From positions 1-21,545 of the IMG/VR virus record IMGVR_UViG_3300024257_000065: DNA of 21,545 nucleotides, one strand, 5' to 3'. This DNA comes from a virus. How positions within the stretch are numbered: the first letter of the stretch is position 1; every line of letters starts with the position of its first letter. The translations under genes were made by a program, and so were the position numbers. The notes below the pieces were generated by a model that worked only from the letters and a program-made list of their open reading frames with translations, was not told the DNA's origin and ran no database searches. Positions 3,746-21,545 of the stretch are shown here, piece by piece.

Positions 3746-5770
3746 ATGACAACTTTATTTGAAATTAAAAACGGCTTTGCCCGTCATAATAAAATCCCTA
3801 TGTGGTTTGCTGGGATTGTTTTAAAAGAAACTGAAAGAGCTGTATATATATATGGCCAAGGAACCACCCAAACTACTAAAACAGGAATTTGTTGCGTATG
3901 TGGAAGGACTCTGACGCACCCTGTTAGTGTTATATTAGGAATTGGACCTGAATGTGGAGGACACTTCCATGATTGGAAAGCAATAGGAGGTTATACAGAA
4001 GCCAATATTGAAAGACTTAAAAGTGCTGTAAAGGAAATTAAAATTGATCAGTGGCTTCCTAAAAGTGTAATCAAAACAAAAGAAGCTTCTGAAGAAATTG
4101 TACAAGCTCCTCAGGACCACTTAATGTTAAAAAGTAAAGAAGAAGAAATGAAACCAAAAACAGTAGCTCTAAGAAGGGCAATATTGATCAAACCCACTCC
4201 CAGTACTAAATTGATTAAAATCTCTTTTCCTTTTAACCATGATGATATTACTAACATTAAAACCCTACCGGGACGAAGATATGTATCCGATGGAAAGTAT
4301 TGGACAAGCCCTGTATCCATAGAAGCTATTGGAAAGCTATCAGGATGGGGATTTGAATTGGAGCAAGTATTGATGGATCATCTTCTAAAATCTACTATCA
4401 AAAAACAAGACCTAAAAGAAGTGGAGGTCAAAGGACTTAAAAAAACTTTATTTCCATTCCAGAAAATAGGAGTCAGTTTCATAGATAAGAAGGATGGGAG
4501 GGCTTTGGTAGGAGATGAAATGGGATTGGGTAAAACTATTCAATCATTAGCTTATCTCCAACTACATCCTGAAAAAAGACCTGTGTTGATTATATGCCCT
4601 GCATCTTTAAAACTGAACTGGGAAAAGGAAATTCAAGAAACAATTGATTACAGATGTATTCAAATACTATCTGGCCAAACACCTACTCCTCTGGTTGGTG
4701 ATATTATTATCATTAACTATGATATTCTTTCTTATTGGATGGAAGCTCTTCGGGCTTATAGATTCCAAGTAATTATATCTGATGAGTGTCACTACTTTAA
4801 GAACAACAAAGCTAAAAGAACAAAGGCAATCAAACTCCTATCTAAAGGTGTACCCCACTTCATAGCTTTATCTGGAACACCAATAGTAAACAGACCAATT
4901 GAAATATTTAATGCTATTAAGATAATTGATGATACGGTAGCTCCTGATTATTGGACTTATGCTAAAAGATATTGTGGTGCTAAATACAATGGATATGGCT
5001 GGGACTTCTCTGGAGCAACTAATACAACTGAACTCCATCAAAAGCTTTCTGAGTCAATTATGATTCGGAGATTAAAGAAAGATGTACTGAAGGAGCTTCC
5101 TGATAAAATTAGAACTTTCACGCCTATTGATTTGGACAATCTAAAAGAATACCAAGAAGCTGAGTCAAACTTTATAAACTGGATGAAAGTTAATAGAGGA
5201 AGTGCCGCGGCTGAGAAAGCTAGTAATGCCCAAGCCCTTGCTGAAATAGAAGTGCTAAAACAATTGGCTGTTAAAGGTAAATTGAATGAAGTTATTAACT
5301 GGGTTGAAAACTTCTTAGAAAGTGGTGAAAAACTTATCCTGTTTGCTAACCATAAATTTGTTATTGATGCCCTGATGGAGAAGTTCAAAAACCTAGCTGT
5401 CAAGATAGATGGAAGTGTGGGAATGGATAAGAGGCATATGGCTGTAGATAGATTTCAAAACTCTGATGAAATTAGGTTGTTCATAGGAAACATTAAGGCG
5501 GCTGGAGTCGGACTCACTTTGACTTCCTCTAGTAATGTTGCTTTTATAGAATTGCCTTGGACTCCGGGTGATCTAACTCAGGCAGAGGACCGGGCTCATA
5601 GAATAGGGCAAAAGAATTGCGTCCACATCCATTATTTACTAGCTTATAATACAATCGAAGAAAAAATAGCAAGACTTCTTGATTCAAAGAGAAGGGTGCT
5701 GGATAGTGTACTGGATGGAAAAATAACTGAAACTGAATCTTTATTAACTGAACTATTAAATAATTATTAA
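3746..5770 (+). CDS. SNF2-family DNA helicase/translocase
   Basis: Superfamily 2 ATPase of the SNF2/SMARCAL1-like type, 674 aa. Residues 46-75 have a zinc-ribbon-like C49-x2-C52 ... GPEC70 pattern resembling the small N-terminal domain of phage and bacterial SNF2 proteins (DUF6011-like). Residues about 143-205 resemble a HARP-type DNA-annealing domain. The ATPase core follows: Walker A GDEMGLGKT (256-263 region), DECH box (346-349), SGTP motif III (376-379), RRLKKDVLKELP, and near the end GVGLTLTSSS and AEDRAHRIGQ (motifs V and VI). All core motifs look intact. Such proteins translocate on DNA, remodel forks or anneal strands; phage versions are linked to replication and recombination. The sigma-like gene starts four bases later. 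Confidence 0.95.
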   Translation: MTTLFEIKNGFARHNKIPMWFAGIVLKETERAVYIYGQGTTQTTKTGICCVCGRTLTHPVSVILGIGPECGGHFHDWKAIGGYTEANIERLKSAVKEIKIDQWLPKSVIKTKEASEEIVQAPQDHLMLKSKEEEMKPKTVALRRAILIKPTPSTKLIKISFPFNHDDITNIKTLPGRRYVSDGKYWTSPVSIEAIGKLSGWGFELEQVLMDHLLKSTIKKQDLKEVEVKGLKKTLFPFQKIGVSFIDKKDGRALVGDEMGLGKTIQSLAYLQLHPEKRPVLIICPASLKLNWEKEIQETIDYRCIQILSGQTPTPLVGDIIIINYDILSYWMEALRAYRFQVIISDECHYFKNNKAKRTKAIKLLSKGVPHFIALSGTPIVNRPIEIFNAIKIIDDTVAPDYWTYAKRYCGAKYNGYGWDFSGATNTTELHQKLSESIMIRRLKKDVLKELPDKIRTFTPIDLDNLKEYQEAESNFINWMKVNRGSAAAEKASNAQALAEIEVLKQLAVKGKLNEVINWVENFLESGEKLILFANHKFVIDALMEKFKNLAVKIDGSVGMDKRHMAVDRFQNSDEIRLFIGNIKAAGVGLTLTSSSNVAFIELPWTPGDLTQAEDRAHRIGQKNCVHIHYLLAYNTIEEKIARLLDSKRRVLDSVLDGKITETESLLTELLNNY

Positions 5771-5773
5771 GAA

Positions 5774-6265
5774 ATGGATAACATAAATCTAATCCGTAAA
5801 ATCACTTGGCAATATTTCATGAACAGTGGAATGGACTTTGATGAGCTATTTGGTGAAGCTTCTGTTGCTTATTATGAAGCATTAGAAACATATGACCCAG
5901 ATAAAGGAAGCCTATCAAGTTATGTATGGAATGGAATGTCAGGACGATTATGTAATGTGCTAACCAGAGAGAAGAGATACACATATGACTCCTTAGAATA
6001 TGAGGATTGTGATGATGATGCCAGCCACACTTATAGTAATGAACCTTATGTGCTACCCAATCTGTTTTTTGAGGTTTGGGAAGAGCTTGGGGATCAAGCA
6101 AAACAAGTAGCATCTATGGTGCTAGCTGATCCATATAATTATCTTGACAAATCCCCTAAATTAGCGAGAGGACAAATTGTACAAGAGCTACGGGGAAAAG
6201 GATGGAGCTGGAGTGTTATTTGGAAAACACTAGGTGAATTAAAAACAACCCTAAATGAAAACTAA
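5774..6265 (+). CDS. Sigma-70 region-2-like protein
   Basis: Residues about 21-67 resemble sigma-70 region 2: DFDELFGEASVAYYEALETY, then DPDKGSLSSYVWNGMSGRLC, matching the family pattern DL.QEA..A...A...YDP.KG.F.TYA......I...L. The C-terminal part (about 130-163, ARGQIVQELRGKGWSWSVIW) could be a helix-turn-helix in the place of region 4, but it is short and diverged. At 163 aa it is the size of a small ECF or phage-type sigma. It is probably cotranscribed with the helicase (3-base gap). The first copy of the two-part promoter element overlaps its last codons, so it may control that promoter class. Specificity is inferred. Confidence 0.8.
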   Translation: MDNINLIRKITWQYFMNSGMDFDELFGEASVAYYEALETYDPDKGSLSSYVWNGMSGRLCNVLTREKRYTYDSLEYEDCDDDASHTYSNEPYVLPNLFFEVWEELGDQAKQVASMVLADPYNYLDKSPKLARGQIVQELRGKGWSWSVIWKTLGELKTTLNEN

Positions 6266-9038: not shown

Positions 9039-9325
9039 TTATGACTTATGAAAAATTAAAAACAATTGAAGATGCTAGAAAACTTGCTAAAGGGCTTCGT
9101 GATTCTTTAGAGTTTAAAAAAATGCTAGATGATATAACTTTTGCAATTACAGGAAGGCAATACCCTTTCACAAATGATACAGTCACACCTGTGATTAAAG
9201 AGATTGTGAGAGAAGCAGAAAAAGAAACACCCCATTTTGAAAAAATAAAAGTATTGATGGATAGAGTGCAGGAGCTTATAAATTTTGAAAAGAAAAGAAT
9301 CATACAACAACCTGAGCATAACTAA
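9035..9325 (+). CDS. Hypothetical 96-aa helical protein
   Basis: Almost entirely predicted helix, with alternating charge (KTIEDARKLAKGLRDSLEFK; VIKEIVREAEKETPHFEKIK). A second in-frame ATG is at 9041; 9035 is chosen because it overlaps the previous stop by ATGA. It sits between the initiator-like gene and the loader gene and may be a replisome adaptor, by position only. Confidence 0.74.
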   Translation: MIMTYEKLKTIEDARKLAKGLRDSLEFKKMLDDITFAITGRQYPFTNDTVTPVIKEIVREAEKETPHFEKIKVLMDRVQELINFEKKRIIQQPEHN

Positions 9326-9327
9326 CT

Positions 9328-9924
9328 ATGGAATGTATCAAATGTAAAAGAGAATACAAAAGGCAGGAATGTGAATTTTGTATCAGAGAAGGAAAGTGGA
9401 ACAGCTTGATAAAAGAAAGCTTTATTCATTCAACATTTCCTCCAAGAATTGAAACTGATCTTTTATGCTTAAACCTTCCTGAAATAGAAATGTGGGAAAA
9501 TAGCTATTTGTATGGAGTGGTTAAAAGTGGTAAAACAATAGAAGCCTGTACCATGTTATTGGAAACTAAGCATTTCAATTACATCTACAATCAAGAAGCT
9601 TCCTACTGCTTTAAAAATGCCTCAGACTTATTGGTTGAGATAAAAGCAAGCTATGGAAAGAATGTCATGGATGAGAATCAAATAATTGAAAAATATATAG
9701 CCTATGATTATTTGGTACTGGATGACCTTGGAGCAGAAAGAGTTACGGAGTGGGCATTACAGATTCTTTACATAATCATCAACAGAAGGTATGAATGGGA
9801 AAAAGAAACCATAATAACATCCAATTTTAGTTTGGCTGAATTAGCTCAGAATTTAGGAGATGATCGCATACCAAGCAGAATCCAAAGAATGTGTAAACAA
9901 ATAAAATTCAATAAACCCATATGA
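9328..9924 (+). CDS. DnaC/IstB-like AAA+ helicase loader
   Basis: AAA+ ATPase that would load the downstream DnaB-like helicase. A small zinc knuckle opens the protein (C3, C6, C15, C18). Walker A is GVVKSGKT (63-70), Walker B YLVLDDLGAE (about 128-137, Asp132/Asp133), a sensor-like ITSNFSLAEL follows, and RIPSRIQRMC near the end fits the arginine-finger region. At 198 aa it is shorter than E. coli DnaC (245 aa). Its 3' end overlaps the helicase start by ATGA, which supports the loader role. Confident on family; partner inferred. Confidence 0.88.
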   Translation: MECIKCKREYKRQECEFCIREGKWNSLIKESFIHSTFPPRIETDLLCLNLPEIEMWENSYLYGVVKSGKTIEACTMLLETKHFNYIYNQEASYCFKNASDLLVEIKASYGKNVMDENQIIEKYIAYDYLVLDDLGAERVTEWALQILYIIINRRYEWEKETIITSNFSLAELAQNLGDDRIPSRIQRMCKQIKFNKPI

Positions 9925-11468
9925 ACTTAGAAAGAAAAATCATAATAGGCTTAATCACTTCAACTGATTACATCAAACAGATAGCACCTGTGCTTAAATT
10001 AGATTTATTCCAAAGCGCAGCGGCTGGCATCCTAGCTAAATGGTGTATGGAATATTATGAGCAGTTTAAAAAAGCACCAGAAAAAGATATTGAAATCATT
10101 TACTTTGAGAAAGTTAAGCATAAAAAAATATCAGAGGACTTGGCAGAAGAGATTGAAAATGATATCTTGCCTGATTTAAATGAGGAGTATGTAAGTGACC
10201 CAATCAATATAAAAGCCCTATTAAGCAAAACAAAAAAGCATTTCAAAGAAAGAAAGCTGATTCAATTAAATGAACAAACCCAAACTCTATTAGATGATGG
10301 AAAATTGGAAGAAGCTGAGGCACTGATAAAAGATTACAAATCAGTAGCTGAAGAAAGGATGGACATAAACCTTTCTGATGAATCTACTCTGGATGTTGTT
10401 AGTAAAGCTTTTTCAGAATCCGAAACTCCAATTGTACAATATCCCGGAGCATTAGGAAAGTTTTGGAATCATCAATTTGTTAGAGGAGGTTTGATTGGTT
10501 TAATGGCCCCAGAGAAAAGAGGAAAGACATTTTGGTTATTAGATATGACGATAAGAGCTTCCCGCCAAGGAGCAAAGGTTGCTTTCTTCCAAGCTGGAGA
10601 TATGACCGAAACTCAACAAATCCTTCGTATGTGTATTTACTTAGCCAGAAAGAGCAATCAAGATAGATATACCGGTGCCTTGTGGCTTCCTGTGAAAGAC
10701 TGCCTCCGTAATCAGCTTGATTCTTGTACTTTAGACGAACGGGAGTCAATGATTGGGGTGTTAGATGGGTTAGATTACACTAAGGACACAATCAGGCAGG
10801 ACATTGTATTAGAGGACTTGATACAGTCTTACAAAGACAATCCTGAATATTCACCCTGTTACAATTGTGATCAATATTACAAATACAGATTAGGCACACC
10901 ATGGATTAAAGAGATTCATATCAAAAATGCCCTGAGTAAAAAAGAAGCTCAAGAAAAGTATTCTGACTTTTTCATAAACCATCCTAAACAATTCAAACTA
11001 TCCACTCATGCTAATGGCACCTTGTCTATAAAGGGAATCAATGACATACTTAATATGTGGGAGGTGGAAGATGGGTTTGTACCTGATTTAATAGCAATTG
11101 ATTATGCTGATATTTTAGCTCCTCCAAGTCGGATGGAATTTAGACATCAACAAAATGAAATCTGGAAAGGTTTGAGAAGTATTAGTCAGGAAAGGAATGC
11201 GCTTGTGATAGCACCCACCCAAGCCGATGCTAATAGCTATGAAAAAAACAGCTTGAGTCTAAAAAACTTTTCTGAAGACAAAAGGAAGTATGCCCATGTT
11301 ACAGCCATGTATGGTTTAAATCAAGATTGGAAAGGCAGAGAAAAGAATCTGGGTGTGATGCGAATAAATGAATTGGTAATTAGAGAAGGAGCATTTGACA
11401 GCTCCCAACATGTATATGTTTTACAGAAATTACAAATTGGAAGACCATTTTTAACAAGTTACTTTTAA
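9921..11468 (+). CDS. DnaB-like replicative DNA helicase
   Basis: 515 aa, RecA-fold 5'-3' helicase of the replication fork. Residues 1-145 form a helical N-terminal domain. Walker A is APEKRGKT (196-203) with Ala in place of the usual first Gly, followed by FWLLDMTIRA; QAGDMTETQQI resembles helicase motif H1a; Walker B is LIAIDYADIL (Asp394); IAPTQAD is near 430. An insertion of about 100 residues (about 245-350) lies between these, with C261, C269 and the pair C313/C316 that could bind zinc; typical DnaB lacks it. It follows the loader gene with a 4-base overlap. Function is confident; the insertion is unusual. Confidence 0.9.
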   Translation: MNLERKIIIGLITSTDYIKQIAPVLKLDLFQSAAAGILAKWCMEYYEQFKKAPEKDIEIIYFEKVKHKKISEDLAEEIENDILPDLNEEYVSDPINIKALLSKTKKHFKERKLIQLNEQTQTLLDDGKLEEAEALIKDYKSVAEERMDINLSDESTLDVVSKAFSESETPIVQYPGALGKFWNHQFVRGGLIGLMAPEKRGKTFWLLDMTIRASRQGAKVAFFQAGDMTETQQILRMCIYLARKSNQDRYTGALWLPVKDCLRNQLDSCTLDERESMIGVLDGLDYTKDTIRQDIVLEDLIQSYKDNPEYSPCYNCDQYYKYRLGTPWIKEIHIKNALSKKEAQEKYSDFFINHPKQFKLSTHANGTLSIKGINDILNMWEVEDGFVPDLIAIDYADILAPPSRMEFRHQQNEIWKGLRSISQERNALVIAPTQADANSYEKNSLSLKNFSEDKRKYAHVTAMYGLNQDWKGREKNLGVMRINELVIREGAFDSSQHVYVLQKLQIGRPFLTSYF

Positions 11469-11762: not shown

Positions 11763-12032
11763 ATGGAAAGAAATAAAAAACCAGAAAAGAAGTCCAAAGG
11801 ATTCTTTGAAGTCAAACCTCTATGGGAAAAGGAGTGGGAAGGGATGCCTGAATTTACACAGAATGATTTAACCTCCTTCCGTAAAATAATTGTCCACTTT
11901 AGAAACCAAGAAGATGTAGAGGAGTTTGCAAAGCTTCTTAATCAAAGGATAACTAAAAAGCAACCAAGCATTTGGTATCCAAAAAGAGAAATTCGTCATC
12001 ACTTCAATAAACGATACATCGATGAATCCTAA
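11763..12032 (+). CDS. 89-aa protein coupled to the glycosyltransferase
   Basis: After a basic start (ERNKKPEKKSKGFFEVKPLW) comes EFTQNDLTSFRKIIVHFRNQ, then EDVEEFAKLLNQRITKKQPS and IWYPKREIRHHF. I recall this layout (a strand VHF, a helix EDVxxFAxLxxQxIT, then SIWYPK) as a recurrent small domain beside DNA-modification or glycosyltransferase genes in phages of several hosts, but cannot name it. The last 11 bases overlap the next gene, so the two are made together. It could be a partner or specificity subunit of the glycosyltransferase; that role is inference. Confidence 0.75.
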   Translation: MERNKKPEKKSKGFFEVKPLWEKEWEGMPEFTQNDLTSFRKIIVHFRNQEDVEEFAKLLNQRITKKQPSIWYPKREIRHHFNKRYIDES

Positions 12033-12846
12033 ATACCCAGTGTACATACCATCTAAAGGTAGGTGGGAAACCAGATTGACTAGTAAAGCTCTGGAGCTAA
12101 TGAATATGCCTTATTATATAGTGGTAGAAAAAGAAGAGTATGAGCAATATGCTTCTGTCATTTCTCCTAAAAAGATTCTGGTATTGCCCTTTAGCAATAA
12201 GGGATTGTTTTCAGCTAGGAATTGGATCATGGAACATTCCATATCTTTAGGAGCTAAAAGACATTGGCAACTGGATGATAATATTGAAGGCTTTTGTAGA
12301 TTCAATAACAACTACCATGTTCCTGTTACATCAGGCACTATCTTTAGGTGTGCTGAGGACTTTGTGGATAGATATGAGAATATAGCATATGCTGGATTCC
12401 AATATGACTTCTTTGTACCTAGTAAAGTTCTACATCCAGCCTTTGTTATAAACACCCGAATCTATTCCTGCACACTAGTGAACAATGCCATTCCCTTTAG
12501 ATGGAGAAGCCTGTACAATGATGATACAGATGTTTGTTTGCAAGCTTTAAAGGAGAAATGGTGTACGATTCTTTTCTATGCTTTCATACAATTGAAATCC
12601 ACCACAATGACTATTAAAGGAGGAAACACTGAGGACTTATATTTGATCCAAGATGGTCGTTTAAAGATGGCAGAAGCTCTTAAAGAGCTACACCCCAACC
12701 TAACTAGAGTAACATGGAAGTGGGGACGGTGGCAGCACCAAGTAAATTATACACCCTTTAAAAGAAACAAACTGATAAAAAAGAAAGGTTTGGAAATTAA
12801 GAAAGGTGTCGATAATTATGGAATGAAATTAAAGAAAATAAAATGA
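12022..12846 (+). CDS. Glycosyltransferase, TET-associated (TAGT)-like
   Basis: 274 aa GT-A-type fold. Evidence: opening strand YPVYIPSKGRW (residues 5-15), a second strand PYYIVVEKEE, an acidic DxD-like site QLDDNI (Asp85/Asp86) and a second acidic cluster YNDDTD (165-170) where the family has its catalytic region. This layout matches, by memory, the TET-associated glycosyltransferases that add sugars to oxidised bases in phage DNA. No TET/JBP dioxygenase is in the window, so the acceptor base and sugar donor are unknown. The C-terminus is very basic (KRNKLIKKKGLEIKKG), consistent with DNA binding. It is preceded by the coupled 89-aa gene and followed by a methyltransferase gene. Confidence 0.75.
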   Translation: MNPKYPVYIPSKGRWETRLTSKALELMNMPYYIVVEKEEYEQYASVISPKKILVLPFSNKGLFSARNWIMEHSISLGAKRHWQLDDNIEGFCRFNNNYHVPVTSGTIFRCAEDFVDRYENIAYAGFQYDFFVPSKVLHPAFVINTRIYSCTLVNNAIPFRWRSLYNDDTDVCLQALKEKWCTILFYAFIQLKSTTMTIKGGNTEDLYLIQDGRLKMAEALKELHPNLTRVTWKWGRWQHQVNYTPFKRNKLIKKKGLEIKKGVDNYGMKLKKIK

Positions 12847-12904
12847 AACTGAATATAATATGATAACGGACCATAAACATTGTTCTATTTGTAGACAAGA
12901 ATAA

Positions 12905-12917
12905 TTAAAAACGAAAT
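12905..12917 (+). promoter_or_regulatory. Leader-like motif, diverged
   Basis: TTAAAAACGAAAT precedes the ATG at 12918. It matches the leader with one substitution and one missing base. Upstream, 12847-12904 holds no convincing gene. Confidence 0.35.
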
Positions 12918-13682
12918 ATGAAAAGAAACGAAATATATTTAGGCGATTGTCTCGAAGTAATGAAAGACATACCAAATAAAAGTATTGATGCTGTTATTTG
13001 TGATTTACCCTATGGTATAACTAATTGTAAATGGGATAGTGTAATTCCTTTTGATGAAATGTGGCTAAGACTAAACAAACTAATAAAACCTAACGGAGCT
13101 ATTGTATTATTTGGTAGTGAGCCTTTCAGTAGTGCTTTAAGAATGAGTAATATTAAGAACTATAAGTATGATATAATATGGCATAAAAAAAGACCATCAA
13201 ATCCGATGCTGGCTAAAAAACAAGTTATGAAAGTACATGAAAACATATCTATTTTTTATAAAAAATTTGGAACGTATAACCCACAGGGACTTATTAAAAC
13301 AGACGGGAAGCCAAGAGGAGGTGTGAATCCAAGTAAAACAGAGTTGGGATTCGGAAGATCAATAAAGAAACCATATAAGCAGACTCATACTAATTATCCT
13401 AAAAGTATACAAACATTTGGAACAGACAACAGTAGGAATGTTCATCCTACTCAAAAACCAGTTGCTTTGATGGAATACCTAATCAAAACCTACACGGATG
13501 AAGGTGAAACAGTCCTTGATTTTACAATGGGTTCAGGAACAACTGGCGTTGCCTGTGTGAATTTGAATAGAAATTTTATTGGAATTGAAATAGATAATAA
13601 GTATTTTGAAATAGCTAAAAATAGAATTGCTAAAGCTGCATCAAAATTGGCTGATAAGCCAAAAGTGCGTGGGCTTTTTTAA
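12918..13682 (+). CDS. Orphan DNA methyltransferase (N4-C/N6-A, beta class)
   Basis: Transfers a methyl group from S-adenosylmethionine to an exocyclic amino group in DNA. The catalytic motif DLPYG (29-33; DPPY type) comes first, then FGSEPF, HPTQKP (about 176-181) and, at the C-terminal end, the SAM-binding motif DFTMGSGTTG (from about 201) with IGIEID after it. Catalytic motif before SAM motif defines the beta order. Size (254 aa) is normal. No restriction endonuclease gene adjoins it, so it is probably a protective or regulatory orphan. Its target is not visible. The end of the gene, KPKVRGLF, overlaps a terminator-like hairpin. Confidence 0.93.
   Translation: MKRNEIYLGDCLEVMKDIPNKSIDAVICDLPYGITNCKWDSVIPFDEMWLRLNKLIKPNGAIVLFGSEPFSSALRMSNIKNYKYDIIWHKKRPSNPMLAKKQVMKVHENISIFYKKFGTYNPQGLIKTDGKPRGGVNPSKTELGFGRSIKKPYKQTHTNYPKSIQTFGTDNSRNVHPTQKPVALMEYLIKTYTDEGETVLDFTMGSGTTGVACVNLNRNFIGIEIDNKYFEIAKNRIAKAASKLADKPKVRGLF
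13656..13680 (+). terminator. Terminator-like hairpin at methyltransferase stop
   Basis: AAGCC (13656-13660) pairs with GGCTT (13672-13676) around an 11-base loop, and the tract TTTTTT (13675-13680) runs into the stop codon. The stem is only 5 bp, so efficiency may be modest. Confidence 0.45.
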
Positions 13683-13746
13683 TAAGTTGGTTATTAGTTA
13701 TTGGAGGCACCATCGGTATATCATATTGGATTGTTCAATTTATAAA

Positions 13747-14073
13747 ATGGATGTTATGGATCATAGAAAACATTTAGTCAATTTAGTCTTTATGGTAAAG
13801 GGATTGTTTGAAACTCATAGCCAAATGGAACAGGCTAAACTACAAAAAACAATACAACATCATATAAGTTGGCTGGAACAGGAGCTAATAAAAGAACCAA
13901 CTAAATGTGAAGAAGGAAAGTGCACAGAAGCTCCTAAACTACCCGAAACACCAGAGGAGCTCATGGCCTATGCTATGAAGCATTTTGTTAAGGCTTCTTT
14001 AGTATCTAAAAGGAAGTGGGTTGATGGTGTTCTTAAATATAGAAAAGAAAAAAATAATAACCACCAACCCTAA
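13747..14073 (+). CDS. Hypothetical 108-aa helical protein
   Basis: The frame is open from 13627, inside the methyltransferase, but the residues before 13747 look like out-of-frame translation; ATG codons at 13747 (chosen) and 13756 are better starts. The protein MDVMDHRKHLVNLVFMVKGL has helical segments (HSQMEQAKLQKTIQHHISWL), a Cys-containing Pro/Glu-rich linker (TKCEEGKCTEAPKLPETPEE) and a basic end. Not recognised. It ends where element P2 begins. Confidence 0.65.
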   Translation: MDVMDHRKHLVNLVFMVKGLFETHSQMEQAKLQKTIQHHISWLEQELIKEPTKCEEGKCTEAPKLPETPEELMAYAMKHFVKASLVSKRKWVDGVLKYRKEKNNNHQP

Positions 14074-14099
14074 TGCAACCAAAAGGCAATTGTATTATA
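14070..14099 (+). promoter_or_regulatory. Two-part promoter-like element P2
   Basis: CTAAT at 14070-14074 and ATTGTATTATA at 14089-14099, with the same 30-base overall span as the copies at 6251 and 17804. It lies 49 bases before the ATG at 14149, in the only intergenic gap of this area; the gap holds no other feature. Confidence 0.6.
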
Positions 14100-14148: not shown

Positions 14149-14850
14149 ATGAACAGAAACGATTTAATCAAAGCCGCGAAAGAATTAAATGCTGTGATGG
14201 AACTTGATCCAGCGATTGTAGTAACAACAAAAGCTAAGGATGTTGACCTGAAAGCTGGGATAACAAAAGCTTCCAAGCTTATAACTGAGGATGATGAGTT
14301 TTCAGATAAAACCATTGCTATCTTAGAAGAGATGGGATTGATGGAAGGTGAAGAAGTTGAAGAGGAGGAGGAAGAAGAGGAAGAGGAAGCCCCTGCTCCA
14401 AAAGCTAAGAAAGGAAAGAAAAGCAAGAAAGCTCCTGCCCCTGAACCAGAGGATGAAGAGGATGAAGAGGATGAAGAGGATGAAGAGGATGAAGAGGATG
14501 AAGAGGATGAAGAGGATGAAGAGGATGAGGATGTGGAAGAAGAGGCACCTGCTCCAAAAGCTAAGAAAGGAAAGAAAGCAAAGAAAGCCACTCCTGCTGA
14601 GGATGATGATGAAGAGGAAGCACCTGCTCCAAAGCCTAAAAAAGTAAAGGTTGGAATGACTCGTCTGGATGCAGTTTGTAAAGCTCTGAATGCCAAGAAA
14701 GCTCCTAAAACTATGGAAGCATGGGCAGAAGCTGCAGATGCTCTTTATGAGGATGCTGGTGGAAAAGCCAACTTAAAAGAAACCAAAGACGATGTCCGGA
14801 GAGTTTCAAAGATGGCACCTCACTTTGATATTGATATTCCTACCAAGTAG
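14149..14850 (+). CDS. Acidic repeat protein, 233 aa
   Basis: Three parts. Residues 1-65 (NRNDLIKAAKELNAVMELDP, later ITEDDEFSDKTIAILEEMG) are a small helical domain. Residues about 66-165 are low-complexity: poly-Glu, two copies of an APAPKAKKGKK basic block, and eight DEE triplets in a row, so negative and positive patches alternate. Residues about 166-233 (GMTRLDAVCKALNAKKAPKT, ending HFDIDIPTK) are a second helical, possibly winged-helix, domain. The alternation of disordered acid and base is typical of DNA mimics, histone-like or phase-separating proteins, but no function is known. First gene after element P2; its TAG shares a base with the GTG start of the radical SAM gene. Confidence 0.85.
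   Translation: MNRNDLIKAAKELNAVMELDPAIVVTTKAKDVDLKAGITKASKLITEDDEFSDKTIAILEEMGLMEGEEVEEEEEEEEEEAPAPKAKKGKKSKKAPAPEPEDEEDEEDEEDEEDEEDEEDEEDEEDEDVEEEAPAPKAKKGKKAKKATPAEDDDEEEAPAPKPKKVKVGMTRLDAVCKALNAKKAPKTMEAWAEAADALYEDAGGKANLKETKDDVRRVSKMAPHFDIDIPTK
14392..14577 (+). repeat. 30-base exact direct repeat within acidic protein gene
   Basis: Bases 14392-14421 and 14548-14577 are identical and both encode the PAPKAKKGKK block; a third, diverged copy begins near 14626. The copies flank the 9-base tandem array, so the region could expand or shrink by recombination. Confidence 0.85.
14452..14523 (+). repeat. Tandem array, 8 x GATGAAGAG
   Basis: Eight perfect 9-base units in frame, each encoding Asp-Glu-Glu. 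Perfect identity between units suggests recent slippage and probable copy-number variation. Confidence 0.95.
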
Positions 14851-15905
14851 TGAAGAAGTTAAAAAGTAGTGTAACAGTGAGAGGGGACGGTTTGTACTGT
14901 CCTCTTCCACTTTCTATTGACTCATATGGCAACTGCCTAACAGATTGCCATCATTGTTATTTTAGGAATCTAAATAACATTTGGGATGATGATTTGAAAC
15001 CAGCTGATTTAGACCTTCTTGAAAAGAAATTAGAAAATGGAATTAAAAACAAAAATCCCAAATCAATTCTTGCTCATCTCTTAAAGCAAAAAAAGACTAT
15101 CCGACTGGGAAACAAATCTGACCCATTTCAAGAAATAGAAAACAAACACAAAGTTAGCAGGAGGATTATTCGTTTGCTAACAAGCCTTGATTGGTCCTTC
15201 GTTGTCCAAACTAGGTTCACCCATAACTTACTACCTATTGAAAAAATAATACTCGGAGCCAACCAAGAAAAGCTTATTACAATTATGCCTGTTCTTTCAC
15301 CCGGACTGGAAAAGGATTGGGAAATATTAGAAAGAGGAAAGACCACCCCACCCTTTGATAGATTAAGGCATGCTGAACATTTTATCAATAAAGGAATACC
15401 AGTGGGAATAAATGGTGAACCTTTTATACCGGGCTATCATACTGTTAAGGATTTTGAAGATACTTTAATACTTTTAAAGCACCATAATATACCAAGTTAT
15501 AATACATACAATTTTCATTTCAATGCCTTTGTAGCTAAAAGACTTCATGCCATAGGAATTGATATTGAAAAGATATGGCATTATAATCAAGATAAAGAAT
15601 GGAAAAAGATATTGGCTAAACTTTTAACACTAGCTAAAAAACATAACATAAAACTAGGATGCCCTGATTTTGTAAATACAGGAGCTGATAGAATAGAACC
15701 CACAAACACTTGTTGTGGAGTTGATGTACCTAATCCCTGTACTTTTAATACTCATCATTTTAAGAAATTAAAACAAAAAGGAATACCAGATGACATAATA
15801 GTAAAGACATGTTATGATCATTCTGGAGATTATCAACAGGGCATTGATATAATAACTGGAAAACAATCAAATTTTTACACCCTTAAAGATGCTGGATTAT
15901 TATGA
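14850..15905 (+). CDS. Radical SAM enzyme, spore photoproduct lyase-like (1)
   Basis: GTG start at 14850, overlapping the previous TAG by one base. Residues 29-36 carry C29-x3-C33-x2-C36 (CLTDCHHC), the [4Fe-4S] cluster site of radical SAM enzymes. LGNKSDPFQEIENKHKVSRR, shortly after, and the following VQTRFTHNLL resemble the SAM-binding and barrel segments of the spore photoproduct lyase (SplB) family. Further cysteines near the C-terminus (C288, C289, C297, C321) could form an accessory metal site or assist hydrogen transfer. At 351 aa it is near SplB size. The next gene overlaps by ATGA. Family is confident; substrate unknown, with DNA thymine as a possible target by analogy to SplB. Confidence 0.88.
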   Translation: MKKLKSSVTVRGDGLYCPLPLSIDSYGNCLTDCHHCYFRNLNNIWDDDLKPADLDLLEKKLENGIKNKNPKSILAHLLKQKKTIRLGNKSDPFQEIENKHKVSRRIIRLLTSLDWSFVVQTRFTHNLLPIEKIILGANQEKLITIMPVLSPGLEKDWEILERGKTTPPFDRLRHAEHFINKGIPVGINGEPFIPGYHTVKDFEDTLILLKHHNIPSYNTYNFHFNAFVAKRLHAIGIDIEKIWHYNQDKEWKKILAKLLTLAKKHNIKLGCPDFVNTGADRIEPTNTCCGVDVPNPCTFNTHHFKKLKQKGIPDDIIVKTCYDHSGDYQQGIDIITGKQSNFYTLKDAGLL

Positions 15906-16837
15906 AATTTATTGAAGACAAAGGATTCATGGGGCTTTCTAAAGAAGAAAAAACCATAACAGGAAAAGCCACTGCTGAGGTGGTTGTTATAGGAGCTGGA
16001 ATAATAGGAGCTACCATAGCAACTGCTTTTCGGAATAAAGGGCTGAGTGTTTTAATTATAGATAATGATGACCCAGAGTCTGGAACAAAGCCCTGTGGCG
16101 GTCTTATAAAACCAAGCCCTTTAATGGGATTGGCTAATGAACAAATCAATGCTAGTTTAGATATGCTTGATTCCACTTTTGGATTAAAGAAGGAAACAAT
16201 GATCATCAAACCTAGTGGTAATTTAATTAAAGCATCCGTACGGGGTGTTAACATGGACTTAATCTTTTCAACTGTAAAATCCTATGGACATGTTTGGAAA
16301 ATCGAAACATCACCCAATAAAGTGTACTACATACCCAAAGACACCCAACATACCGTTGTGGTAGATACTAAGATTATTGTAATCGCGGCTGGTATGGGGT
16401 GTCAAGTCCTTCTTCCTCAGCTATTTAGAAAGGATGGATTGGTTGCTAAAAGAGGATTCTCATTTCACTTCAAAGGACAAGTCCAAGAGCAATTTGTTAA
16501 ATTCTGGGCACCCTATAAACAAATAACTATCCATAACACCACCTATGCTGGGGAAAAGATAATTTGGGCAGGAGATGGATCAGCATTGACTCTTCCTAGT
16601 TGGTATGATGGTAGGATTGATGAGGCATTTACTAGAGTGGTTAATGAACTCCCAAGAAAATTTAAGCTATTAAGAACTGTTAGAGGGCTTCGGAGCTTTC
16701 ATAGAAATAAGAAATACAAACCCTGTTATCTAAATAAGATTGATGAGGGGTGTTGGATAGCTACGGGCAGTGGAAAATTTGGTTTAATTTCAGCTGGGTA
16801 CTCAGCTGTAGAAATTTTGAAAGATGAACTTGGATAG
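15902..16837 (+). CDS. FAD-dependent oxidoreductase, DAO family
   Basis: Residues 26-50 (EVVVIGAGIIGATIATAF) are the Rossmann dinucleotide-binding strand-turn-helix with GAGIIG at 31-36; the strand LSVLIIDND that follows ends in acidic residues that would hold the ribose. KIIVIAAGMG and the C-terminal CWIATGSGKFGLISAGYSAV match the D-amino-acid oxidase/glycine oxidase family (DAO). Length 311 aa is slightly short for the family (about 350-380). Such enzymes oxidise amines or amino acids with FAD; DAO-like enzymes also act on amino-acid-modified thymines in phage hypermodification pathways. Overlaps both neighbours (4 bases upstream, 14 downstream), so the three enzymes are made together. Confidence 0.87.
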   Translation: MKFIEDKGFMGLSKEEKTITGKATAEVVVIGAGIIGATIATAFRNKGLSVLIIDNDDPESGTKPCGGLIKPSPLMGLANEQINASLDMLDSTFGLKKETMIIKPSGNLIKASVRGVNMDLIFSTVKSYGHVWKIETSPNKVYYIPKDTQHTVVVDTKIIVIAAGMGCQVLLPQLFRKDGLVAKRGFSFHFKGQVQEQFVKFWAPYKQITIHNTTYAGEKIIWAGDGSALTLPSWYDGRIDEAFTRVVNELPRKFKLLRTVRGLRSFHRNKKYKPCYLNKIDEGCWIATGSGKFGLISAGYSAVEILKDELG

Positions 16838-17801
16838 AATAGAAAAAGTAATAATGGACTGTTATTGGTACAGACCTATTGAAGAGGAGTATCATGATGT
16901 TTTTGATTTCATACAAGGTGTTTTATGGGCAGAACTATGGAGAGGAACAATTTTTGAATATATAGATGAACATGGGCGGGAAGCTCTTTATCGACTTTGT
17001 AAAGAATACCCAAGATTTGTTAACCGTGATTCTGTAATAGATATCATACAACACAATCCCTTCTCTGCTATTAAAATAGGAGTGGGTACATATAAGTGGA
17101 AAGGTGATGAAGCCCCAATCCTTAAAGCTTTAGAATGTGGTGTTAAATTTATAGATACAGCTCCAACTTATGGATTTGGGAAGGTTGAAAAAGCTTTATC
17201 TACCATTGATTTAAAAGAAGTCATATTGGGTTCAAAAATTCCTAAAAATTATATGACCAGAAAAAACATCCACTCCTCCTTAAAAAGAACAAAAGACCTA
17301 TTCCCAAAAAAAGACATACACTACCAACTACATTGGCCAAACAATAAGTATGGATTGTATGATTCTTGTAATACACTGGCTTTCTTAAAAAGACAAAATA
17401 GCATCCCTTCAGTGGGGCTGTGTAATTGTTCAGTACAGCATATAAAATATGCTTTGGGATTTGTAATGATTGATACTCTTCAAATCCCATTCAATCCTTT
17501 TAGAAAGGAGTTTTTAAATTATCTTATTCCATTTGCGAAAGAGTCAAATATAAGAGTCATAGCGCATAGTCCATTTGGGCAGGATTTCAAAAAGTTTATG
17601 GCTCAGGATAAGAAGAAAGAAATGTTCAGAGTTGCTAAGAAATTGAATTGCACAATACCCCAATTGATACTGGCTTGGATTATACACCATGATATTATAC
17701 CTATTCCCAAGACAAACAGTTCCAAGCATATGGAAGAAAATTTGGATTCAGTTAATTTAAAACTACCAAATTGGGCTGTGGAAATAATGAACAATCTTTA
17801 G
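16824..17801 (+). CDS. Aldo/keto reductase with N-terminal extension
   Basis: 325 aa. Residues about 81-325 are an AKR barrel: IGVGTYKW, then FIDTAPTYGFG, GSKIP and YQLHWPN, giving the complete catalytic tetrad Asp111, Tyr116, Lys138 and His170. PIPKTNSSKHMEENL near 289-303 is the usual NADPH-binding segment. The first about 80 residues (DRIEKVIMDCYWYRPIEEEY and on) are a separate helical, acidic domain not found in ordinary AKRs. Members reduce aldehydes or ketones with NADPH, so it could act on an aldehyde or imine made by the preceding oxidase; this pairing is inference. It overlaps the DAO gene by 14 bases. Confidence 0.88.
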   Translation: MNLDRIEKVIMDCYWYRPIEEEYHDVFDFIQGVLWAELWRGTIFEYIDEHGREALYRLCKEYPRFVNRDSVIDIIQHNPFSAIKIGVGTYKWKGDEAPILKALECGVKFIDTAPTYGFGKVEKALSTIDLKEVILGSKIPKNYMTRKNIHSSLKRTKDLFPKKDIHYQLHWPNNKYGLYDSCNTLAFLKRQNSIPSVGLCNCSVQHIKYALGFVMIDTLQIPFNPFRKEFLNYLIPFAKESNIRVIAHSPFGQDFKKFMAQDKKKEMFRVAKKLNCTIPQLILAWIIHHDIIPIPKTNSSKHMEENLDSVNLKLPNWAVEIMNNL

Positions 17802-17803
17802 GT

Positions 17804-17833
17804 CTAAATGAAAAGAATCTTAATTGTATAATA
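17804..17833 (+). promoter_or_regulatory. Two-part promoter-like element P3
   Basis: CTAAATGAAAA at 17804-17814 and ATTGTATAATA at 17823-17833, ending 15 bases before the ATG at 17849. It is nearly identical to P1 in both boxes, with the same spacing, although the DNA between the boxes differs. Confidence 0.65.
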
Positions 17834-17848
17834 TATTAAAAATTAGAT

Positions 17849-18259
17849 ATGTCAGGAAGCAAAAAAAATTGTCGAATTGAAGACCTTCAAAAAATCTTTA
17901 ATCAGAAATGGCCTGATTACATAGTTGTGGGCAGTCGCCCCAATGTTAAGGGCTGTGAAGTATATAGGAAAGCCAAAGGTGATGACCAACCTATATTGTG
18001 CCAAAACTTCTCTAAAAACTATGATCTATTTGAAGCGGTACTTGATCCAAGATATGACCCAAGCAAACCTTGGCCCATTATGGTCGCAGGTTTGTTTGAA
18101 GACAATACCTGTCTAATTAGTACAGGTCGACAACGATTAACACTAGAGAAGACACTGGACACAGCTTTAAAGCTCCAAGAAGTATTAGTGTTATATGACT
18201 TACAACTGAATCCTTCTATTATTGACAAACTTAGGAAAATTTATAAAAAAATTAAATGA
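17849..18259 (+). CDS. Hypothetical 136-aa protein
   Basis: Not recognised. The start, MSGSKKNCRIEDLQKIFNQK, resembles a small helical N-terminus; the middle (YIVVGSRPNVKGCEVYRKAK, later PWPIMVAGLFEDNTCLISTG) is beta-rich, and a long basic helix closes it. It is first after element P3, and its stop overlaps the second radical SAM gene by ATGA, so it may be an accessory or substrate-carrying partner of that enzyme. Confidence 0.78.
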   Translation: MSGSKKNCRIEDLQKIFNQKWPDYIVVGSRPNVKGCEVYRKAKGDDQPILCQNFSKNYDLFEAVLDPRYDPSKPWPIMVAGLFEDNTCLISTGRQRLTLEKTLDTALKLQEVLVLYDLQLNPSIIDKLRKIYKKIK

Positions 18260-19665
18260 ATTATTGGGAATTGAGAACCATTGTTAGCAAAATCATACCC
18301 CGTATGACCCAGCTAAGCAGTAGCAAGCGCAAAGCTTCTGCTGTAAAGGAAAAAGGAAGAAAAAAGAATTACAGCCAATTTAACATTCGACATAATGAGT
18401 GGAGGAAGCAAGAAAGGTTATTGAATACAGAAGAGATTAACAGCTTTTTGGAAATCTCTTTGAGGGCTTCAGCCTGCCCAATGCCTTTCAATATGGACAT
18501 CTGGGATGGATTGATTTGTCCATTCGCATGTAAATATTGTTTTGCCAATGCCTTTCGGGCTTCCTTATATACTGCTTTTTTTGATAATAGTAAAACCATG
18601 GGATTCAGACATTGTAATCCAGATAAATATAAACTGGAAATGGATGGTATGGATAAATTCAGAGGAAGGAGTTTTGAGGACAAGAAGAAGTTGTCAGGAA
18701 TCAATAAAGCTTTTGCCTTGGAAATCCCAGTACGTATGGGGATAAGGTTTGAAGATTTCTTAAAGAATGAAGGCCAAGAGGGTGTTAGTTTAAAGATGTT
18801 GGAATACTTAGCTGATATTGAATACCCTGTAATGATAAATACCAAATCTGGATTAGTGGGACAAGAAGCCTATGTCAAAGCCCTATCTGAGAATGCAGCT
18901 GGAGCCGCTGTACATGTTACTGTTATAACCAGTAATGATGTTATCAATAAAAAACTGGAACCGGGTGCACCTCCTTTTAAAGAAAGGATGAAAGCTATCA
19001 AAGTAATGGTTGCTTCAGGAATAAGAGTGGTTGCCCGTATTGAGCCATATTTATTCCTTCTTAATGATAGGAAGGAGGATGTTGATTATTATATGGAACA
19101 AATGTGGGATGCTGGTGTTAGGCATATAACCTTTGACACTTATTCTTATACAGCCCTGAACCAAGGAATCAGGCAGAGCTTCATGAATGTTGGTTATGAT
19201 TTTGATCGAATCTACTTAGCTGGATGTGATAGCCAACCTTTAGGAAGTTTATTGCTGGGTAAATTTATGGACTTATTTAAGGAAAGAGGATTTTATTGCT
19301 CAACCTTTGATATGGGAAATGTGCCTGATAATCATGATTCTATTTGTTGTGAAGTTGGGGATTGGTTTGGTGACAATACAAGTTGGAATTATGGAAGTAC
19401 AGTAATGGCGGCAAGATTTATCCAAGAAAAGAAAGGCACCAATGTTAGTTGGAATATGTATGAAGCCTATGTAGATAAACATGGTGGCTTCTTAACTGAA
19501 CAATTAAGAGAAGAAGTAAAGCTGTTATGGAATCTGGAAGGCAATAATGCTTATAGTCATAAGTGGGCCAGAGGGCTTACAGCTAATGGAAGAGATGAAG
19601 ATGGATTGTTATGGAGATGGGATGACACTGATTACAGAACAGATTTATTAAACACAATTATATGA
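18256..19665 (+). CDS. Radical SAM enzyme, spore photoproduct lyase-like (2)
   Basis: 469 aa. Residues 88-95 have C88-x3-C92-x2-C95 (CPFACKYC), the radical SAM cluster site, preceded by FNMDIWDGLI as in the SplB family. Later segments (VMINTKSGLV; VHVTVITSND; GIRVVARIEPYLFL) fit the strands of the radical SAM barrel. An N-terminal basic region (about 1-55) and a C-terminal part of about 120 residues with Cys-Cys (DSICCEVGDW) lie outside the core. It differs clearly from the first radical SAM gene in length, cluster loop and tail, so the two are not a recent duplication and probably catalyse different steps. Substrate unknown. Confidence 0.87.
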   Translation: MNYWELRTIVSKIIPRMTQLSSSKRKASAVKEKGRKKNYSQFNIRHNEWRKQERLLNTEEINSFLEISLRASACPMPFNMDIWDGLICPFACKYCFANAFRASLYTAFFDNSKTMGFRHCNPDKYKLEMDGMDKFRGRSFEDKKKLSGINKAFALEIPVRMGIRFEDFLKNEGQEGVSLKMLEYLADIEYPVMINTKSGLVGQEAYVKALSENAAGAAVHVTVITSNDVINKKLEPGAPPFKERMKAIKVMVASGIRVVARIEPYLFLLNDRKEDVDYYMEQMWDAGVRHITFDTYSYTALNQGIRQSFMNVGYDFDRIYLAGCDSQPLGSLLLGKFMDLFKERGFYCSTFDMGNVPDNHDSICCEVGDWFGDNTSWNYGSTVMAARFIQEKKGTNVSWNMYEAYVDKHGGFLTEQLREEVKLLWNLEGNNAYSHKWARGLTANGRDEDGLLWRWDDTDYRTDLLNTII

Positions 19666-20807: not shown

Positions 20808-20946
20808 GAAATTGATTGCCCATATTAAATCAGGTGGTTCAATGACCACTAAGAAAAAGAAGTGTGTATCCAATAAATATACTACTGATGAAGAGCAAAC
20901 AAAAAACAAGACTAAACCATTATTTGGAAGTAGCGAAGATGTATAA
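20770..20946 (+). CDS. Small basic 58-aa protein
   Basis: MGGKSRKAGGVSRKLIAHIK begins a strongly basic, glycine- and serine-rich peptide, followed by MTTKKKKCVSNKYTTDEEQT and a C-terminal PLFGSSEDV. I recall short phage proteins starting GGKSRKTGGVSxxLI, so this is probably a conserved phage family of unknown function; a nucleic-acid-binding role would fit the charge. It is supported by AGGAGG at 20755. Confidence 0.66.
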   Translation: MGGKSRKAGGVSRKLIAHIKSGGSMTTKKKKCVSNKYTTDEEQTKNKTKPLFGSSEDV

Positions 20947-21545
20947 TATAATGCCAAATTTCTTTATGAGTTTGGCTTATTTGCAAGCATCTAATGCCCA
21001 AGCATATACTGAAAATAATTGGATATGGATTGAGGATGAAGATTGGTGTTTATTTCCTCCTCTAAGGACAGAAACAGAAGTTGGTAAATATCCAGCTATT
21101 GAAAAGGTCTGGGCAAGCTTTCTAAACGGAATTATCAATTTAGACGGTTCCTATGCTCCGTATGTGTTAGATTGTAATTATATATTCGATCCAGTCCGTT
21201 TCCAAGACCTTAGTGGGAAAGAGTGGGCGACATTTAGAAAGAACATCAGGAAGTGGCCCAGAAGGAATCCAAACTCAGTATATATTTTTGGCAATAATCC
21301 AAAGCAAATGCGTACATTATTAGGCTTATGGCTTGAGAAAAAAATGGAAGTTGTGGAGGATGCTGATGTGATTTGTAAGCTTATTTTAGAGGATAATTCA
21401 AATGTTTTTAAGAAGTGTTTGTATAATTCTGACAACAAATTAGTAGCTATCAACTGTTGGGATTCCAATTGGAAATACATAAATTATAGGCTTTGTATTA
21501 CTCTTCCTGATGAGCCTTTTTTAGAGGAGTTTGCTCGATATTCCT
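20939..21545 (+). CDS. Incomplete gene at window end; possible GNAT-fold protein
   Basis: An open frame of at least 202 codons runs off the window. The ATG at 20939 overlaps the previous gene by 8 bases; ATG at 20951 is the alternative. Segments such as QDLSGKEWATFRKNIRKWPR, then VYIFGNNPKQM, resemble the Arg-rich strand-helix of GNAT-like acyltransferase folds (lysyltransferase/DUF2156 style), but this is a visual resemblance only. Many Trp and Cys residues are present, without a regular metal motif. If it is an acyltransferase it would fit a base-hypermodification pathway. The 3' end is needed for any assignment. Confidence 0.72.
   Translation, partial: MYNIMPNFFMSLAYLQASNAQAYTENNWIWIEDEDWCLFPPLRTETEVGKYPAIEKVWASFLNGIINLDGSYAPYVLDCNYIFDPVRFQDLSGKEWATFRKNIRKWPRRNPNSVYIFGNNPKQMRTLLGLWLEKKMEVVEDADVICKLILEDNSNVFKKCLYNSDNKLVAINCWDSNWKYINYRLCITLPDEPFLEEFARYS

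Follow-up and report, generated by a model that had tools for sequence, protein, structure and literature searches.

A two-radical-SAM gene module in uncultured phages as a candidate pathway for thymine hypermodification

The virus record IMGVR_UViG_3300024257_000065 (21,545 bases, referred to here as the window) encodes two radical SAM enzymes, rSAM1 and rSAM2, in a block with a flavin enzyme, an aldo/keto reductase (AKR), a predicted sliding-clamp-fold protein and a GNAT-type transferase. On balance, homology and gene order make it somewhat probable that this module encodes a phage pathway for hypermodifying thymine in the phage's own DNA once this has been replicated, with the radical SAM pair installing the substituent. 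A preliminary description of this DNA had proposed a multi-step base or nucleotide modification by four genes: the two radical SAM enzymes, a DAO-type oxidase and the AKR. The reading best supported is modification of a DNA base, since the 'DAO' is, on homology, related to the flavin-dependent lyase (FDL) of phage PaMx11 and relatives hold a pyridoxal phosphate (PLP) enzyme of the phage M6 type in the same slot. The four-gene boundary was wrong.

A search of 2.9 million viral contigs found rSAM1 in 59 loci and rSAM2 in 77, and gene content was counted in 55 viral loci with enough flanking sequence. A second radical SAM gene lies 5' of rSAM2 in 54 of the 55; it is rSAM1 in 43 loci and another gene, rSAM3, in 13 (one locus may count twice). 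The gene for the 257-amino-acid (aa) clamp-fold protein occurs in 52 of these loci, the gene for the 274-aa GNAT in 53, and a sliding clamp in 50. The constant core is one radical SAM enzyme (rSAM1 or a substitute), rSAM2, the predicted clamp-fold protein and the GNAT-type transferase. The core stays, whereas a cassette located between the radical SAM genes or next to them varies and may be FDL with AKR, an M6-type PLP enzyme, or a methyltransferase-like protein with AKR. In total, the 55 loci held 24 PLP enzymes, 18 methyltransferase-like proteins, 12 AKRs and 2 FDLs in addition to that of the window, and FDL was always followed by AKR (window, L005 and L082). On a tree of 61 rSAM2 proteins, cassette type required 28 changes, compared with 30.8 when labels were shuffled. 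Cassettes swap nearly freely on this tree, which is the pattern expected if they carry out tailoring steps on a shared scaffold. Judged by the linkage criterion of the preliminary description, the radical SAM pair is almost always linked (54/55) and FDL and AKR are separable, and a fixed four-gene set was rejected since these two vary while the pair is constant. The unit is larger than the four genes first noted and otherwise bounded. Its most important traits were out of view of the preliminary description: the genes for the clamp-fold protein and the GNAT, the exchange of cassettes, and the lack of a canonical front half.

The cassette enzymes have homologues in phage DNA hypermodification operons. 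The FAD enzyme of the window matches Pfam DAO (1.5e-14), the PDB entries 8z2o/8z79, titled 'Flavin-dependent lyase' (E 2e-31, residues 25 to 307), and gp47 of the Pseudomonas phage PaMx11 (28% over 294 aa, E 4e-37). Both full-length homology and the FAD motif (GAGIIG) are present, along with common WAPYxQ, GxGSA, KPC and ISAG motifs, and on these grounds the 'DAO' is a homologue of the FDL of the PaMx11 thymidine-hypermodification operon. An amino acid:DNA transferase (ADDT) reportedly puts glycine on phosphorylated 5-hydroxymethyl-dU (5-hmdU), and FDL is said to cut the adduct to 5-aminomethyl-dU. The cassette PLP enzyme is a homologue of gp52 of the Pseudomonas phage M6 (33%, E 1e-46). The AKR matches Pfam Aldo_ket_red (PF00248, 6.6e-31), with its tetrad (D111, Y116, K138 and H170) invariant in 11 homologues. 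The earlier statement that catalytic features are intact was borne out for this tetrad, for GAGIIG and for the CxxxCxxC motifs of both radical SAM enzymes.

In rSAM1, C29-x3-C33-x2-C36 is invariant across 16 aligned homologues, as are the cysteines of GCPDFVN and NTCCG; in rSAM2, C88-x3-C92-x2-C95 and a CC motif are invariant across 15. Besides the radical SAM core, the C-terminal CC motif is common to both enzymes, which are dissimilar, as first described, yet related (hhalign E 4e-14, 277 columns). While rSAM2 matches Pfam Radical_SAM (PF04055) at 3.4e-6, just below the cut-off, rSAM1 is below Pfam detection and matches NCBIfam rSAM_PA0069 (6e-11) and PHROG 13321, the one PHROG that rSAM1, rSAM2 and M6 gp53 all match. 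The nearest NCBIfam matches of both proteins are the PA0069 and Rv2578c radical SAM families, with scores far below the family cut-offs, so neither enzyme is a member. An AlphaFold2 model of rSAM1 (pLDDT 88) found its best PDB folds among radical SAM enzymes (OxsB, SuiB, DesII and lysine 2,3-aminomutase) with modest scores; superfamily membership accordingly draws on CxxxCxxC in both proteins and on a modelled fold for rSAM1 only. Sequence searches of the PDB gave nothing useful for rSAM1, for rSAM2 or for the clamp-like family. The label 'SplB-type' did not survive: neither window protein matches a spore photoproduct lyase (SPL) family in Pfam or NCBIfam, no SPL was among the best structural matches of the rSAM1 model, and SplB membership was rejected.

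The 257-aa protein is encoded after rSAM2. Its AlphaFold2 model (pLDDT 83) retrieved the 9-1-1 clamp (E 8e-9), PCNA and the beta clamp in Foldseek (probability 1.00, TM about 0.6), so a sliding-clamp fold is predicted with good confidence. This protein is distinct from the phage's own replication clamp, which lies further downstream (PHROG 947, 1.4e-30) and shows weak profile similarity to it (hhalign E 8e-4, probability 24%). Of the 46 loci in which the 257-aa protein was found, 45 contain rSAM2 as well and the remaining one is cut by the contig end; this co-occurrence disfavours a replisome role unconnected with the radical SAM genes. The 274-aa protein is assigned by its matches to the GNATs of the LPG_synthase_C/DUF2156 kind (LPG_synthase_C in 7 of 14 family members, best 6e-6; PDB 2hqy, 4e-4). 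The core is encoded inside a replisome block that continues downstream with a clamp, DNA polymerase, clamp loader and UvsX-like recombinase.

Described thymidine hypermodifications begin from 5-hmdU, made before or after replication (PMC6449724). The M6 operon encodes ADDT (gp51), a PLP enzyme (gp52), a radical SAM enzyme (gp53), a kinase (gp55) and a thymidylate-synthase (TS)-like enzyme (gp58), and makes 5-(2-aminoethyl)dU; that of PaMx11 encodes ADDT (gp46), FDL (gp47), GNAT (gp48), a kinase (gp50) and a TS-like enzyme (gp51). Gene order in the module parallels both (ADDT–PLP–radical SAM and ADDT–FDL–GNAT), with rSAM1 in the ADDT slot. As in M6, the radical SAM enzymes fall in PHROG 13321 and relatives carry a gp52-type PLP enzyme directly 5' of rSAM2, whereas the window has FDL–AKR in place of PLP, a second radical SAM gene where ADDT would stand, and no front half. 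As in PaMx11, an installer–FDL–capping-transferase layout includes a near-full-length FDL homologue; unlike PaMx11, the module has two radical SAM enzymes, an AKR, a clamp-fold protein and a GNAT of another kind, and the ADDT, kinase and TS-like enzyme were undetected in the contigs searched for them.

The front-half searches covered the window's own virus and a 62.9-kb relative with terminase, portal and replication genes. The former is covered by three overlapping records (G014, G000 and G001) and is near-complete at about 60 kb, with one gap left, probably small. In 38 contigs, neither ADDT (PF18724) nor the 5-hmdU kinase (HMUDK_hel, PF18723) was detected, and the M6 and PaMx11 controls matched both. 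The TS-like dUMP hydroxymethylase (PF00303) was absent from 15 contigs, including G000, G014 and G001, with M6 and PaMx11 again matching. TET/JBP dioxygenase (PF12851) was absent from the same number of contigs in a search without a phage positive control, and the TET/JBP route was rejected because its enzyme was not found there; the likeness to TET/JBP-TAGT systems for glycosylated bases consists of a TAGT-family glycosyltransferase 2 kb upstream. Phage base-hypermodification handles besides hydroxymethyl do exist, as in the CmoA/CmoX/CmoY carboxymethylcytosine system, which differs in using cytosine and Cx-SAM (PMC12783734); annotation, without a dedicated profile search, picked out none of its enzymes here. 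In the literature, most subscription journals not being covered, no account was found of a module that has two radical SAM enzymes but neither kinase nor ADDT.

Three defining features of the 5-hmdU-dependent pathway (hydroxymethylase, kinase and ADDT) were not found and one, the tailoring enzymes (FDL, PLP enzyme or radical SAM), was. For this reason the module would resemble that pathway in how its second half works but should not be classified with it. We propose that the radical SAM pair would form the first bond, carbon–carbon or carbon–nitrogen, at the 5-methyl group of thymine, thereby installing an amino-acid-like substituent and replacing the hydroxymethylase, 5-hmdU kinase and ADDT of M6-type phages. 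In SPL chemistry a radical forms on the methyl carbon of thymine, which serves here as a precedent and not as a family claim. That the pair would install the substituent on thymine itself is suggested by four points taken together: homologues of the finishing enzymes act on amino-acid-substituted thymidine in DNA, replication genes surround the unit, a clamp-fold protein belongs to it, and rSAM1 stands in the ADDT slot. FDL would then trim the substituent to a 5-aminomethyl-type base (relatives would use the M6-type PLP enzyme instead), AKR would reduce a released or base-linked aldehyde, for which glyoxylate is a guess, and GNAT would add an acyl or aminoacyl cap to the amine. The role proposed for the clamp-fold protein is to tether these enzymes to newly made DNA, and the benefit could be resistance to host restriction.

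Several observations weigh against this proposal. The homologies of FDL (28%) and the PLP enzyme (33%) leave the substrate unfixed, and thymine as the substrate base is itself suggested by homology. The absence of TS-like and TET/JBP enzymes covers 15 contigs only, and a thymidylate synthase lies near the module in two other relatives (L085:12615-13430 and L137:12727-13494), so that TS absence is not universal. A hydroxymethyl handle could still come from the host or from a phage enzyme family not yet recognised. Among cultured phage records, rSAM1 and the clamp-like protein had no match; rSAM2 had one weak match. A stricter form of the proposal, in which the radical SAM pair and its clamp-like guide bond an amino-acid-like group directly to the methyl of ordinary thymine, free of any hydroxymethyl stage, with cassettes and GNAT finishing the product, is less likely than not; we know of no direct radical functionalisation of thymine for genome protection.

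The strongest competing explanation is ordinary hypermodification from 5-hmdU, the base from which thymidine hypermodifications are said to begin, with a front half that comes either from the host or from proteins too diverged to be recognised and with both radical SAM enzymes acting as M6-type isomerases. The FDL, PLP and radical SAM homologues in M6 and PaMx11 do act on front-half products, but the failure to detect ADDT and HMUDK_hel in 38 contigs, or TS and TET/JBP in 15, makes this explanation unlikely. By our reading of the gene lists, the window's virus and the 62.9-kb relative also have no unassigned conserved protein resembling a P-loop kinase or ADDT. To our knowledge, bacteria do not make 5-hmdU in DNA at scale, which counts against a host-supplied handle.

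Rather less probable still is a substrate other than DNA, namely tRNA, a peptide or a small molecule. Radical SAM enzymes and AKRs have a broad range of substrates, the GNAT is similar to transferases that use aminoacyl-tRNA, and the window's virus has an acyl carrier protein adjoining the GNAT; these points are outweighed by a dedicated protein of predicted sliding-clamp fold, the position of the module within the replisome block, the homology of cassette enzymes to DNA hypermodification enzymes, and the TAGT glycosyltransferase in or near several modules. SPL-like DNA repair by the radical SAM enzymes, with the other genes incidental, is very improbable: M6 gp53 is annotated 'DNA repair photolyase' and one rSAM2 relative has a sub-threshold SPL match (E 0.0014), but neither window protein matches an SPL family, the best structural matches of rSAM1 include no SPL, two different radical SAM enzymes are kept together, and FDL, PLP, GNAT and cassette swapping would be left unexplained.

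Positions of the module genes and associated elements are collected in Table 1. The gene overlaps first described are real (4 nucleotides between rSAM1 and the FAD enzyme, 14 between the FAD enzyme and AKR), and the end of the 136-aa open reading frame (ORF) overlaps the start of rSAM2 by 4. The repeated promoter-like element is also real, with TTGTATWATA present in 4 copies in the window compared with 0.28 expected in shuffled sequence, but the second copy stands before the 136-aa ORF and not directly before rSAM2; the first stands 5' of the gene for the acidic protein. A generic sigma-70 promoter scan gave no useful excess over shuffles. By eye, the C-terminal domain of the acidic protein resembles proteins preceding rSAM1 in L008, L009 and L024. 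In the early small-gene block of the window, TTAAAAACTCA occurs at 554, 843, 2170 and 2607, a few bases 5' of several start codons; it is perhaps a translation-start element, being too near the start codons for a promoter.

Table 1. Module genes and neighbouring elements in the window
Feature	Position	Strand	Basis or context
TAGT-type glycosyltransferase, accessory, 2 kb upstream	12022..12846	+	PF20691 2.8e-43
TTGTATTATA element, promoter-like	14090..14099	+	Upstream of acidic protein–rSAM1–FDL–AKR genes
Acidic low-complexity protein, short C-terminal domain	14149..14850	+	ORF list
rSAM1, radical SAM enzyme, 351 aa, GTG start	14850..15905	+	CxxxCxxC, NCBIfam, model
FDL, flavin-dependent-lyase homologue ('DAO'), 311 aa	15902..16837	+	PDB and PaMx11 homology, GAGIIG
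AKR, aldo/keto reductase, 325 aa, ~80-aa N-terminal extension	16824..17801	+	PF00248, tetrad
Second TTGTATAATA element	17824..17833	+	Upstream of 136-aa ORF and rSAM2
136-aa ORF	17849..18259	+	Also directly 5' of rSAM2 in L006, L011, L021
rSAM2, radical SAM enzyme, 469 aa	18256..19665	+	CxxxCxxC, PF04055, PHROG 13321
Sliding-clamp-fold protein (predicted), 257 aa	20034..20807	+	AlphaFold2 model, Foldseek, linkage to rSAM2
GNAT/DUF2156-type transferase, cut by window end (full 274 aa, G001 5194-6018)	20864..21545	+	LPG_synthase_C, PDB 2hqy

Neighbouring genes add further detail. An N6/N4 DNA methyltransferase (12918-13682) lies beside the TAGT gene, just upstream of the module, and in L134 and L185 a TAGT gene is inside the module, between GNAT and clamp. 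Beyond the downstream end of the window, the virus has a gene for an acyl carrier protein of 80 aa (L029:6182-6421 in G001; PP-binding, 5e-13), placed between GNAT and the sliding clamp. No other scanned locus has this gene, and its product might be the acyl donor of GNAT. The DNA polymerase I that follows (L029:7397-10054, G001) seemingly has, by eye, an N-terminal uracil-DNA-glycosylase-like domain. In four relatives, rSAM2 is interrupted near CxxxCxxC by inteins with Hint/Intein_splicing matches (L024:8334-9326 and 9323-11167; L011:11481-12044 and 12041-13876; L082:9958-10491; L102:8320-10113), and in L024 and L011 it is encoded as two ORFs with a 4-base overlap, which look like split inteins. 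The different radical SAM gene rSAM3, found in relatives without rSAM1, stands after a DUF362 gene and a glycosyltransferase-like gene in one locus (L026:6717-9632). Among about 85,000 bacterial and archaeal species genomes, rSAM1 occurred once, on a short 13.4-kb contig (L185) binned as a Thioalkalivibrio metagenome-assembled genome; it carries the full module with TAGT and sliding clamp, and is probably a virus contig and possibly a clue to the host.

Dozens of diverse phages keep homologues of the finishing enzymes in this module, with the known starting enzymes undetected. If the radical SAM pair does start the pathway, it would be a second chemical entry to modified thymine in phages, and its enzymes would be new tools to install groups on native DNA. 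The module predicts new bases in a widespread group of uncultured phages, together with a clamp dedicated to DNA modification, and its two-radical-enzyme route may be a new chemical means of disguising a genome.

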